From assembly GCA_030655015.1 (NCBI GenBank), contig JAURWJ010000151.1:1-60964 (forward strand): a stretch of 60,964 nucleotides of DNA. Reading direction: 5' to 3'. Origin of the DNA: Methylotenera sp. (GTDB lineage: Bacteria; Pseudomonadota; Gammaproteobacteria; Burkholderiales; Methylophilaceae). The notes under the pieces are model-generated. The model had not been told where the DNA came from and ran no database searches. It saw only the letters and a list, made by a program, of their open reading frames with translations. The position numbers and the translations under genes are program-made. Positions 8,226 to 37,002 of this stretch are shown here, one piece after another. Each line of letters opens with the position of its first letter. Within the stretch, counting starts at the first letter, position 1.

Positions 8226-8960
8226 ATGTCTAATCTTCGATTTTTTACAAATTTACCCTTGGCATTAAATGCAAGTGTGCAACTCTCAGAGAGCGCCGCG
8301 GCACACGCCACGCGTGCGCTACGTTTAAATGTTGGCGACAATGCCGTGGTATTTAATGGTGATGGCTTTGATTATGACTGCGAATTAACTTCAATCAAGA
8401 AAAATACAGTGATTGCCAACATTACTGGTGTAACAAAAGTAAGTAATGAGTCGCCACTGAACATTACCTTACTGCAAGCTGTTTCCAGCGGTGACCGCAT
8501 GGACTTCACCATTCAAAAATCGGTTGAGTTAGGCGTAAAAAACATACAACCCATCATCAGCCAACGTAGCGTAGTGAAGTTATCGGCTGAACGTGCAGAG
8601 AAACGTACTGAGCATTGGCAAAACGTGGCGATTTCAGCTTGCGAGCAATCCGGTCGCGCAGTTGTGCCAAAGATATTCCCGCCAATGTCACTTGAGTACT
8701 GGCTAAGCCACAATCCTATTGCAAATGCTACGCGCATTCAGCTCAACCCCGTCGGCGCAAAACGCTTAACTGAGATGCAAAAACCAACCTCAGAGATCCA
8801 ACTGTTGATTGGGGCAGAAGGTGGCCTAAGTCAAAGTGAAATAGACCTTGCCGCCGCGCAAGGCTTTCAATCTATCGTGTTAGGCCCACGAATTTTACGT
8901 ACAGAAACTGCAGCATTGACCGCAATTTCAGTCATGCAATCGGTGTGGGGAGATTTTTAG
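8226..8960 (+). CDS. rsmE: 16S rRNA (uracil-1498-N3)-methyltransferase
   Basis: 244 residues, SPOUT-class methyltransferase. The C-terminal trefoil-knot region reads IGAEGGLSQSEIDLA then GPRILRTETAA, the RsmE SAM-binding signature. It methylates N3 of U1498 in 16S rRNA. Length matches the family. Its last 45 codons plus roughly 27 bp of downstream sequence recur as a diverged fragment at 24209-24373. Confidence 0.95.
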   Translation: MSNLRFFTNLPLALNASVQLSESAAAHATRALRLNVGDNAVVFNGDGFDYDCELTSIKKNTVIANITGVTKVSNESPLNITLLQAVSSGDRMDFTIQKSVELGVKNIQPIISQRSVVKLSAERAEKRTEHWQNVAISACEQSGRAVVPKIFPPMSLEYWLSHNPIANATRIQLNPVGAKRLTEMQKPTSEIQLLIGAEGGLSQSEIDLAAAQGFQSIVLGPRILRTETAALTAISVMQSVWGDF

Positions 8961-32587: not shown

Positions 32588-33358
32588 ATGAGACGCAAGC
32601 TAGTAGTAGGCAATTGGAAAATGAACGGCAGCAAAATGAAGAATAAATCGTTGCTGGAGGGTGTGGTTGCTGGTGTGCGTGACTTGCATAATGCTGACTA
32701 CGTGGTATGTATTCCCTATCCTTATCTTGGACAAGCACAGTCTTTACTGCAGGGTACAAATGTCGCATGGGGAGCGCAGAATCTTTGCGCAACCGAAGAC
32801 GGTGCACTCACCGGTGCAGTCTCTCCGGACATGCTGGTGGATTATGGCTGTACTCACGTCATTATTGGGCACTCCGAGCGGCGCATCCAGTTTCATGAAA
32901 CCGACGACACGGCTGCCACCAGATTCAATGTAGCGCTCAAAGCTGGGTTAACCCCGATATTTTGCATGGGTGAGTCGAGAGAAGAACGTGAATCGGACTG
33001 GACAGAGTATGTAGTTGGGCGGCAACTAGACTCTATCATCAGGCGTTTCGGCGCGGATTTTCTAGCCAAGGCCGTACTCGCCTACGAGCCATTGTGGGCA
33101 GTTGGTACCGGCAAGCCAGCCACGCCTGAGCAGGCGCAAGAGGTGCATAGCTTCATCCGTGGACGTATCGCGAGGTGTAATGTAGAAGTTGCGGAAAATG
33201 TACGTATTCTCTATGGCGGTAGCGTACAACCGGCTAATGCATCTGCACTATTTGCAATGCCAGATATTGATGGCGGCTTAGTGGGCCGCTGCTCACTAGA
33301 CGCTAAAGCATTTGTGGATATTTGTAAGGCCGCTTGCCAGCATCCAATAACAACTTGA
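32588..33358 (+). CDS. tpiA: Triose-phosphate isomerase
   Basis: 256 residues. Active-site residues: Asn/Lys in NWKMNGS near 11-17, His in IIGHSERR, and catalytic Glu in AYEPLWAVGTGK; the phosphate loop ILYGGSVQPAN is present. Last gene of the cbb operon. Usually tpiA sits before secG and nuo, so its presence here suggests an operon-specific copy; whether a second copy exists elsewhere cannot be seen. Confidence 0.95.
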   Translation: MRRKLVVGNWKMNGSKMKNKSLLEGVVAGVRDLHNADYVVCIPYPYLGQAQSLLQGTNVAWGAQNLCATEDGALTGAVSPDMLVDYGCTHVIIGHSERRIQFHETDDTAATRFNVALKAGLTPIFCMGESREERESDWTEYVVGRQLDSIIRRFGADFLAKAVLAYEPLWAVGTGKPATPEQAQEVHSFIRGRIARCNVEVAENVRILYGGSVQPANASALFAMPDIDGGLVGRCSLDAKAFVDICKAACQHPITT

Positions 33359-33372
33359 CTCAAGTTAGGACA

Positions 33373-33420
33373 GATGATGGCTTTTGGCAGAAGCCGTACA
33401 AAAACACAAAAGTCATCATC
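33373..33420 (+). terminator. Long hairpin after tpiA, possible cbb operon end
   Basis: GATGATGGCTTTTG (33373-33386) pairs with CAAAAGTCATCATC (33407-33420): 14 pairs including one G-U, loop 20 nt. No T-run follows, so it is not a classical intrinsic terminator. It could protect the 3' end or work with Rho. It lies 15 bp after the tpiA stop. Confidence 0.45.
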
Positions 33421-33557
33421 TTGCATCTTAACGTTCGCTGCTAATCCCACCTATAAAATGTGAAAAGCATTTCAACATATTCTGGGCTGTTAGCGGCATC
33501 TTAGAGAATAAAAACCACCATAACCGCATGATTTAAAAACCACCATTTAAATAAAGT

Positions 33558-33597
33558 TTGTATTTTTTACACTATTGTTATATATTTATGTAAATAT
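33558..33597 (+). promoter_or_regulatory. Candidate argA promoter overlapped by a palindrome
   Basis: TATATT (33581-33586, five of six -10 bases) lies 17 bp after a weak -35 TTGTAT (33558-33563). Overlapping the -10, ATATTTA (33582-33588) and TAAATAT (33591-33597) form perfect 7-bp arms around TG. The site ends 21 bp before the argA start codon. It is a natural place for a repressor such as the XRE domain encoded by the gene itself; that link is inference. Confidence 0.4.
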
Positions 33598-33618
33598 TAC
33601 AAATTCACAGGTGATTAC

Positions 33619-35232
33619 ATGATGTCTCTTGGTAATTTCATTCGCACTAAGCGCAAATCACTCAACCTGACACTACAACAGCTTGCCTCTAAAATTGAGG
33701 CTGATGCGGGCAATCTATCCCGCATTGAGCGTGGCGAGTTAGGTGTTTCTGAAGTCTTGTTACGCAAAATTGCAGCTGCGCTAAATACAACGCCAGCCAA
33801 TCTTTACACTGAAAGTGATGCCACGGAAACACTATTTGGCGTAAATGAGCAGCAACCCACATATCTGACCGCACATACACCAGCTGCGTACAAAATCAAC
33901 CAGACCAACGCTAGAGATTTTGTACATTGGTTTCGCTCTGCCGCGCCTTATATTCACGCATTTGGTGGACGTACGTTTGTGATTGCCTTTGGCGGCGAGG
34001 TGGTTGACGAGCAGCAGTTTATCGCGCTATCGCACGACCTTAACCTACTTGCCAGCCTTGAGGTCAGACTGGTGTTGGTGCATGGCGCGCGACCGCAAAT
34101 TGAGCAGCGCTTAAAACGCGACAAAATCACCCCCATTTTTCATAACGGGTTACGCGCAACCGATGACAAGACCATGGAGGCGGTTAAAGAAGCCAACGGC
34201 GCAGTGAGAGTTGAAATTGAAGCCTTGCTTTCAATGGGGATTACCAATTCGCCGATGGCAGGCTCTGATATTCGTGTAGCGAGTGGCAACTTTGTGACTG
34301 CAAAACCTATGGGGGTGCGCGAGGGTGTTGATTTACAACATACAGGGGAAGTGCGCAGAGTGGATGCGGTTGGTATTCAAAAGCGCTTGGACGATGGTGA
34401 GCTGGTCATGCTGTCACCGCTTGGCTATTCGCCTACGGGCGAAGCATTCAATTTAAGTTTAGAGGATGTAGCCGTCAGCGCGGCGATTGCGCTGGATGCG
34501 GACAAGCTCATTTTTTTGATGGATTCTGAAGGTGTGCATAATTTACGTGGTGAATTACTACGTGAAATGACCGCCGAAAAAGCCAAGAACTTTCTGCGTA
34601 ACGTGCAAGAAAACGAGCAAGCCATTAACGTTTCAGAAGACGTTAATTACTACCTGCCAGCCGCTGTACGCGCTTGTGAGCATGGTGTGGCCCGCACACA
34701 CCTGATTAGCCGTCATATTGACGGTGCGATTATTCAAGAGTTATTCACGCTTGAGGGTATTGGCACCATGGTAACGGAGCTGAGCTTGGAAAGCATGCGC
34801 AAAGCCAACATTGAGGATGTTGGCGGCATCATAAAACTGTTTGAGCCGCTTGAAACTGAGGGTATTTTAGTGCGACGCGGACGTGAGCGCATTGAGATGG
34901 AAATTAACCATTTTTATGTGATGGAACACGATAACCGTATTATCGGTTGCGCGGCACTGTATCCGTTTATGGCTGAAAAAACCGCCGAGTTTGCATGTCT
35001 GGCGATAGACCCGGCCTACAGGGGCGGCGGGCGGGGCGATAAGTTATTCTATTTTTGTGCCAGCTTAGCCAAAGAGCAGGGACTTAAAAGCTTATTTTGC
35101 CTAACTACGCGCACTGAGCACTGGTTTTTAGAGCGCGGCTTTATTGAACAAAATATAGAAAAATTACCCTCTGAAAAACAGAAACTTTACAATTTTCAGC
35201 GTAAATCCAAAGTGTTTAGCAAAACACTGTGA
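33619..35232 (+). CDS. argA: N-acetylglutamate synthase with N-terminal XRE helix-turn-helix domain
   Basis: 537 residues, where a plain ArgA has about 430-450. Residues 5-62 are a Cro/cI-type HTH (IRTKRKSLNLTLQQLASKI, NLSRIERGELGVSE, ending AAALNTTPANLY). A linker to about 95 follows. Then comes the whole ArgA: amino-acid-kinase domain about 97-380 (FVHWFRSAAPYIHAFGGRTF, VIAFGGE, LVHGARPQIEQ) and GNAT acetyltransferase about 390-530 (CLAIDPAYRGGGRGDKLF). It makes N-acetylglutamate from acetyl-CoA and glutamate, the first step of arginine synthesis, normally feedback-inhibited by arginine. The fusion suggests that the enzyme could bind DNA and sense arginine itself. AGGTG lies five bases before the ATG. 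One continuous frame, no sign of frameshift. Confidence 0.95.
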   Translation: MMSLGNFIRTKRKSLNLTLQQLASKIEADAGNLSRIERGELGVSEVLLRKIAAALNTTPANLYTESDATETLFGVNEQQPTYLTAHTPAAYKINQTNARDFVHWFRSAAPYIHAFGGRTFVIAFGGEVVDEQQFIALSHDLNLLASLEVRLVLVHGARPQIEQRLKRDKITPIFHNGLRATDDKTMEAVKEANGAVRVEIEALLSMGITNSPMAGSDIRVASGNFVTAKPMGVREGVDLQHTGEVRRVDAVGIQKRLDDGELVMLSPLGYSPTGEAFNLSLEDVAVSAAIALDADKLIFLMDSEGVHNLRGELLREMTAEKAKNFLRNVQENEQAINVSEDVNYYLPAAVRACEHGVARTHLISRHIDGAIIQELFTLEGIGTMVTELSLESMRKANIEDVGGIIKLFEPLETEGILVRRGRERIEMEINHFYVMEHDNRIIGCAALYPFMAEKTAEFACLAIDPAYRGGGRGDKLFYFCASLAKEQGLKSLFCLTTRTEHWFLERGFIEQNIEKLPSEKQKLYNFQRKSKVFSKTL

Positions 35233-35278
35233 GCAAATTTTAGTTACAATGACGCAAACTAAACTTGCCAGAATTCAA

Positions 35279-35451
35279 CCCAGATTCTCCATTAGGACTT
35301 GAAGTGGCAGCGCCGCACAGTTTGATGGATTTTTTGTGCAAATTTTATGAGCAATAGTCACTCTATTGACAGAAAATTTGCACAAAAAAGACGCAAAATG
35401 GGCAAGTTGACATTCAAGTAGATGCATTCATCGCCTAATGGAAAATCTGGG
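35279..35451. repeat. 173-bp nested palindromic element between argA and argB
   Basis: Outer inverted repeats CCCAGATTCTCCATTAGG (35279-35296) and CCTAATGGAAAATCTGGG (35434-35451) differ at one of 18 positions, with AA/TT extending them. Inside are perfect 17-bp arms TTTTTTGTGCAAATTTT (35330-35346) and its complement (35373-35389). Inside those are CAATAG (35352-35357) and CTATTG (35363-35368). The layout is that of a MITE or another non-coding palindromic element; the inner stem could also terminate transcription in both directions. No clear target-site duplication is seen. Confidence 0.75.
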
Positions 35452-35456
35452 TTTAA

Positions 35457-36356
<900 letters not shown>

Positions 36357-36369
36357 TTTTAGGTTTTAC

Positions 36370-37002
36370 ATGACCGCTAAAATCTGGATTTTTGACCTGG
36401 ACGATACGCTCCACAACGCCTCCGCGCATATATTTCCAATCATGAATCGCGCCATGACGCGCTACATGATGGAAGCGTTAGATTTAGACGAGCCTGCCGC
36501 ACACAAGATGCGTCAACATTATTGGCGCATCTATGGTGCTACCCTCAAGGGGCTCATGCGCCACCATGATATTGACCCACATCATTTTTTAAATGAAACC
36601 CATCGATTCGAGAATTTACCTGAGCTGGTCATTCAAGCCAAACGTCTTCGGCACATGCTACAAGGCTTATCTGGACGTAAGTTAGTATTTACTAACGCCC
36701 CGCGCAACTACGCCATACGCGTGCTAGAGTTATTGGGCGTTGACGATATTTTTGAGTTGATATTTAGCGTCGAATCTACCCGGTTTCATGCAAAACCATC
36801 GACACGTGGTTTTCAAAAACTGCTTAAAGCGATTAAGGCTAAAGCGAGCGACTGCATCATGCTAGAAGATAGCTTGCCCGCACTCATGACAGCAAAACGG
36901 CTTGGCATGAAAACAATCTGGGTAAGCAAAAGATTAAAAAAACCTAATTTTGTTGATTATCGAATATCCACAGTGTTAGCACTCACTCACCTTAAGCTAT
37001 AA
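36370..37002 (+). CDS. HAD-family pyrimidine 5'-nucleotidase-like phosphatase
   Basis: 210 residues. HAD motif I DLDDTLHNAS at 9-18, motif II FTNAPRNYA (Thr near 109), motif III/IV LEDSLPALMTAK. The SDT1/pyrimidine 5'-nucleotidase-type HAD is regularly found between argB and slmA in Betaproteobacteria. Probably dephosphorylates small nucleotides or sugar phosphates; the in vivo substrate is not established. 13 bp after argB, likely same operon. Confidence 0.88.
   Translation: MTAKIWIFDLDDTLHNASAHIFPIMNRAMTRYMMEALDLDEPAAHKMRQHYWRIYGATLKGLMRHHDIDPHHFLNETHRFENLPELVIQAKRLRHMLQGLSGRKLVFTNAPRNYAIRVLELLGVDDIFELIFSVESTRFHAKPSTRGFQKLLKAIKAKASDCIMLEDSLPALMTAKRLGMKTIWVSKRLKKPNFVDYRISTVLALTHLKL

Follow-up and report, generated by a model that had tools for sequence, protein, structure and literature searches.

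A helix-turn-helix domain in frame with ArgA

The window, by which we mean the whole stretch of 60,964 bases analysed here, carries on its + strand an open reading frame (33619..35232) of 537 aa, counted from the first ATG, in which a DNA-binding domain precedes N-acetylglutamate synthase (NAGS, ArgA). Since the second methionine (33622) is the start in most relatives, the protein here is probably 536 aa long. The next gene, argB (35472..36356, + strand, identified from the ORF list and NCBIfam), has no operator pair of the kind described below ahead of it. Domain search with Pfam and NCBIfam confirmed the initial annotation, which had proposed a Cro/cI-type helix-turn-helix (HTH) in one frame with a complete ArgA. 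The XRE/Cro-cI HTH occupies residues 4-62 (33628..33804, + strand) as judged by Pfam, an 81-sequence alignment and an AlphaFold model, with Pfam matches at residues ~4-60 to both HTH_31 (4e-7, 30.7 bits, cut-off 27) and HTH_3 (5.6e-7, 29.9 bits, cut-off 23). It is followed on the same strand by a variable linker (residues 63-95, 33805..33903), mostly predicted to be disordered (pLDDT below 50 from residue 69), by the amino-acid-kinase domain of ArgA, which opens with its N-terminal helix (residues 96-386, 33904..34776), and by the GNAT acetyltransferase domain (residues 392-537, 34792..35229). Both enzyme domains were placed by Pfam (AA_kinase at 119-364, GNAT at ~422-509) and by alignment to the Neisseria gonorrhoeae enzyme (2R8V; 289 bits across residues 96-527), and the kinase domain by NCBIfam as well, where the ArgA equivalog NF003641 spans residues 95-537 at 685 bits against a cut-off of 344. 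Homology to ArgA begins at about residue 95-101. Pfam did not match the fused protein to PF01316, the DNA-binding domain of ArgR, and neither Pfam nor NCBIfam found a shikimate-kinase-like domain as in BzdR, the C-terminal part being ArgA.

AlphaFold was run on 49 sequences and gave a monomer model that is weak overall (mean pLDDT 57.8). The HTH is its better part: pLDDT averages 76-88 per block across residues 1-60 and 60 across 61-70, and five helices are drawn (4-14, 19-25, 30-37, 45-54 and 59-68), the fifth being less confident. The remainder was too uncertain for use. A helix is also drawn at 96-115, but inside a stretch (69-117) where pLDDT is below 50.

A survey of ArgA homologues for the same N-terminal extension showed it to be present family-wide. 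An ArgA match was obtained in 143 of 150 genomes of Methylophilaceae, and in 129 of these 143 the alignment runs from residue 5 or earlier (hand count of rows). Ten of the 14 later-starting rows were inspected (all except G073, G084, G103 and G175), and the HTH was in frame in nine, a run of N interrupting the tenth (L082). A single ArgA match at 1e-60 was present in 141 of the 143 genomes; in the remaining two the gene is split. The fusion occurs in all 24 Methylophilaceae genera sampled, in one genome or more of each, and an assembly or frame artefact is thereby ruled out. Four genomes of genus g31 (G128, G152, G157 and G167) gave no ArgA match at 1e-60, G128 at a completeness of 99%; the gene may be gone there, or may have diverged too far to be matched. 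A scan of named genomes recovered loci from 80 of 543 relatives, under titles such as Methylotenera, Methylophilus, Methylobacillus, Methylovorus, Pseudomethylobacillus and Candidatus Methylopumilus, the other titles being Methylophilales taxa or vague names. One record titled Sulfuritalea (L154) bears the fusion, and its title is probably wrong.

At wider ranks, ArgA was matched in 283 of 300 genomes of the order and 181 of 276 of the class. No fusion outside the family occurred among the matches listed for order and class, which leave off the weakest ones; the criterion was the alignment start, which a fused HTH of unrelated type would escape. The lowest starts outside the family among those matches were residues 58 (G278), 62 (G614) and 66 (G478), with one internal stop in G278 and three in G614. 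An HTH search of eight unfused ArgA loci from sister families returned only one chance match of eight residues. A single fusion event in the ancestor of Methylophilaceae would be the simplest history.

Over 81 aligned fusions the recognition helix is near-fixed (N32 0.99, L33 1.00, S34 1.00, R35 0.98, E37 1.00), as is R12 (1.00), and the mean frequency of the major residue is 0.70 in the HTH, 0.24 in the linker, 0.81 in the kinase part and 0.75 in GNAT. The dN/dS values over 40 disjoint pairs, which are rough because synonymous sites are near saturation, were lowest in the kinase part (0.028) and GNAT (0.041), followed by the HTH (0.066), and highest in the linker (0.222). As estimated from these codons, the HTH is under purifying selection.

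Paired palindromes over the argA promoter

Immediately upstream of the gene lie two predicted operators, both 13-bp palindromes on the + strand: operator 1, TGTATTTTTTACA, at 33559..33571, and operator 2, TGTAAATATTACA, at 33589..33601, 30 bp further on. They are the only two matches to the family-conserved pattern TGTAWWWWWTACA in the 60,964 bases, where 0.14 are expected. A column profile of 64 aligned promoters gave the consensus TTGYAW, 17 nt, TAWWWT, from which a -35 element TTGTAT (33558..33563, +) was inferred overlapping operator 1, and a -10 element TATATT (33581..33586, +; columns 22-27) between the operators. The TG and CA ends in this stack are set by the search pattern; the -10 columns (T 0.95, A 0.95, then A/T, final T 0.97) are independent of it. 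Operator 1 thus covers the -35 element and operator 2 the presumed transcription start, with the -10 element between them, which as predicted from sequence is the layout of a repressor. The argA promoter was missed by a generic promoter scan, and an Rfam search of 33000-36500 gave no match.

We scored a pair as two occurrences of TGY-N7-RCA, 30-31 bp apart, within the last 120 b before the gene. Such a pair precedes 52 of 81 fused genes, against a mean of 0.005 and a maximum of 1 in 200 dinucleotide shuffles, and 75 of the 81 have one site or more (the shuffles averaged 10.6 and never exceeded 19); since the motif was chosen by eye on the same sequences, this enrichment arises partly by construction. 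The spacing and the comparison with the rest of the same loci are less affected by that choice: in the 80 named loci the 9,600 b upstream of argA held 55 pairs and the other ~472,000 b held 3. Addition of the named loci gave a non-redundant set of 124 upstreams, in which L183, wrongly cut, was entered as a miss; 79 of them carried a pair (29-32 bp) and 109 a site. The pair was absent upstream of all eight unfused argA genes examined, and a palindrome search without a fixed motif returned noise only.

These observations bear on the possibility that the palindromes belong to a different regulator, the fused HTH serving for oligomerisation or being a mere passenger. Other XRE-like genes do exist, as weak HTH-only matches in G003, G020 and G024. 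However, the pair is missing where argA is unfused, it is rare elsewhere in the same loci, and the residues that would contact DNA are far more conserved than the linker; we regard such a regulator as improbable.

The stricter pattern TGTA-N5-TACA yielded 33 pairs among the 124 upstreams, spaced by 29-32 bp (27 pairs), 41-42 bp (2) or 50-52 bp (4), i.e. about 3, 4 and 5 helical turns, the two longer classes coming from streamlined relatives of genus g31 (L066, L067, L068, L078, L080 and L089). This strict set has the spacing expected of a single oligomer that grips the two sites on the same side of the helix. Of 86 pairs found by the looser pattern, 57 were spaced by 29-32 bp and 29 otherwise, the latter including spacings near whole turns (22, 42 and 52 bp) as well as off-turn ones (45, 48, 61 and 76 bp).

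The 30-31 bp pair is missing before 29 of the 81 fused genes, some of which have one clear site. In Methylophilus (loci including L083, L084, L168, L171, L173, L174, L176, L178, L190 and L203) the recognition helix carries S31 (mostly E-I-G), and the promoter has a conserved layout of its own, seen by eye as TTTGCA ... TTTTGC half-sites ~30 bp apart. Among members with L41, 224 of 268 half-sites were TGTA, as against 6 of 96 among those with Q41, several of which retain one clear TGC-type site. The L/Q state of residue 41 agreed with TGTA/other half-sites in 99 of 102 rows. Because the match traces to just 3 and 5 changes on the tree, and falls short of significance when kinship is allowed for, this covariation is suggestive, no more.

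Four loci (L077, L079, L088 and L091) have no site by the TGY-N7-RCA pattern, though a diverged HTH is retained. The lack of a site by this pattern in some streamlined relatives would fit an HTH that is a relic without DNA binding, but as an account of the window lineage this is very improbable, since the HTH is under apparent purifying selection and the window keeps intact paired sites.

The initial annotation had suggested that the first enzyme of the pathway could be its own transcription factor. The conserved recognition helix and the operator pair of the gene's own promoter, which lies inside 33540-33620, strongly support that suggestion in silico. Candidate binding sites at the target promoter, which are a criterion for a trigger enzyme, were found in silico as these palindromes. 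On the strength of these sequence comparisons, it is likely that a classical NAGS gained an XRE domain in the ancestor of Methylophilaceae and now also represses its own gene as a trigger enzyme.

Other arginine loci, further sites and ArgR

A role as a general arginine regulator was not borne out. The operator pair occurred at none of 14 argC and argG loci (seven genomes each, argF included upstream of argG), at none of 8 argJ loci and in none of the 81 intervals of 400 b after argA, between argA and argB. As none of the argC, argFG, argJ and argB loci checked has the pair, argA is probably the principal target, perhaps the sole one.

We also searched eight genomes for single strict sites and found 51, of which 14 are at argA; a reversed control pattern gave 26. 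The excess over the control would fit a fusion that regulates arginine or other genes more widely from sites elsewhere. Thirty-one of the 37 non-argA sites were inspected. Eight of them lie outside ORFs of more than 120 aa, so further targets are possible, and one of the eight recurs: in L093 and L113 a strict site lies between the same two short divergent ORFs. However, the other 23 are inside ORFs of more than 120 aa, and an arginine gene was recognised by reading at none of the 31. Taken with the missing pairs at the other arg loci, this leaves a wider regulatory role with little probability. The commonest non-argA site, in six genomes, falls within the opening codons of a reading frame taken by eye for metW, behind a metX-like gene, and two further sites recur inside ORFs in two genomes each. 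In the window genome (L127), a single strict site at base 1546 precedes by 75 b an ORF of 219 aa, carbonic anhydrase-like on reading; it may be a second target or chance.

In a check for a separate ArgR gene, ArgR was found over the cut-off in none of 60 family genomes, which gave two weak sub-cut-off matches. Nor was it found over the cut-off in any of 100 sampled genomes of the order, whereas it passed in 8 of 14 controls. Since ArgR was not detected in the sampled order genomes either, the fusion did not simply replace it. ArgR is described as conserved in gammaproteobacteria and absent from other classes (PMC5343134). The fusion is a candidate controller of argA in bacteria in which ArgR was not detected.

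ArgJ was found in eight of nine genomes tested, the exception being the incomplete window genome. With ArgJ present, ArgA presumably just tops up the acetyl cycle. Tight self-control makes sense at such a top-up step.

The arginine site and control of argA

Catalytic and arginine-site residues are retained throughout the enzyme part, which by alignment appears intact. The arginine-binding loop E374-T383 (ELFTLEGIGT; 34738..34767, + strand) fits the motif E-(L/I)-(F/M)-(T/S)-X-X-G-X-G-T given for NAGS, for which K201 and E270 are the key residues (PMC4490483). In the alignment to 2R8V, K296 and E374 correspond to this key Lys and Glu of the Neisseria enzyme (PMC4490483). Across 31 diverse family members no change was seen in six residues of the arginine site (E374, T377, G380, G382, T383 and K296) or in two catalytic/substrate residues (R420 and E457). 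Ser392 of the Neisseria enzyme is replaced by T496, and R528/S530 fit R425/S427 by eye, past the end of the printed alignment.

In Neisseria ArgA arginine shifts the N-terminal helix, and the hexamer with arginine is ~20 angstroms shorter along its axis and ~10 wider (PMC4490483). The HTH is tethered ahead of this same helix. With the site intact and, in the Neisseria structure, beside the helix that follows the linker, a response of the fusion to arginine is plausible, no more than that.

We propose the following mechanism. A single oligomer of ArgA, which in Neisseria is hexameric, would use its HTH pairs to hold both palindromes together, and once bound would shut RNA polymerase out at the -35 element and the start site, so that argA expression would drop as ArgA accumulates. 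Arginine would alter DNA binding via the linker, most simply as a co-repressor, and a single arginine-binding event would then set both enzyme activity and gene expression. We infer autorepression of argA by the fusion with good support, and we hypothesise that it is under arginine control. We give about an even chance to a ligand-gated DNA clamp model for the hexamer of this family's ArgA, in which arginine would reshape the hexamer via the N-terminal helix and so set the geometry of the tethered HTH pairs, jointly inhibiting the enzyme and repressing the gene.

The main rival is homeostatic autorepression, in which argA is repressed in proportion to the amount of the fusion, whose DNA binding would not respond to arginine. 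A linker that is variable and, in the model, mostly disordered need not pass on allostery, and the absence of the pair from the other arg loci checked would also suit a purely homeostatic circuit. However, the HTH is tied to the very element of ArgA that arginine moves in Neisseria, and the arginine-site residues do not vary in the 31 members compared; we consider arginine-independent repression a real possibility, though a somewhat unlikely one.

The fusion was also compared with known systems. The N. gonorrhoeae enzyme (2R8V and others) shares the kinase-like and GNAT domains, the arginine loop and the catalytic residues, but classical ArgA has no DNA-binding domain, unlike the Methylophilaceae fusion. 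In ArgR/AhrC, which are hexameric, control of arginine genes is linked to arginine; the fusion, in contrast, has no PF01316 and apparently acts on argA, not on a regulon. The E. coli trigger enzymes PutA, NadR, BirA, PepA and PyrH double as transcription factors, some via an acquired DNA-binding domain, and PutA is reported to bind the putA-putP spacer only (PMC8249747). The fusion differs from these in pathway and enzyme, and its presumed signal is the end product at an existing allosteric site. BzdR consists of an XRE HTH, a linker and a shikimate-kinase-like domain and binds the operator region of a promoter (PMC3602430). The HTH-ArgA protein is like BzdR in joining an XRE domain, a linker and an enzyme fold, but BzdR has no enzyme activity, whereas HTH-ArgA retains its catalytic residues. 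The acquisition of DNA-binding domains by enzymes is widely assumed to be an origin of transcription factors, and synthetic fusions to an active enzyme have modelled the missing link of BzdR (PMC3602430). HTH-ArgA resembles the active intermediate that those fusions modelled.

Enzymes that double as transcription factors are already known. Our literature search, in which subscription journals were thinly covered, returned no description of an HTH-fused ArgA, and protein databases may already annotate the fusion; the words DNA and fusion do not occur in the text of the 2015 NAGS family review (PMC4490483). The ligand-gated clamp, if true, would be a natural, still-active intermediate between enzyme and transcription factor, kept family-wide down to streamlined genomes of ~1.3 Mb. 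The fusion would form a one-gene feedback loop: its enzyme residues are kept, crystals of a relative show the allosteric site, the predicted operator is visible and the fusion maps to the base of one family.

The neighbourhood of the gene in the window differs from that in most family loci. In 132 of 162 family loci, many of them duplicates, rsmE adjoins argA, whereas in the window rsmE (8226-8960) is separated from argA by ~24.5 kb (8960-33540). The genes of this block, named by reading, include Rnf-like, pyruvate-oxidoreductase-like and Calvin-cycle genes (RuBisCO, cbbX, fbp, prk, fba and tpi), the last of which was seen beside argA in the window only. A Calvin-cycle/carbon-fixation block has apparently been inserted just upstream of the argA operators in a methylotroph.
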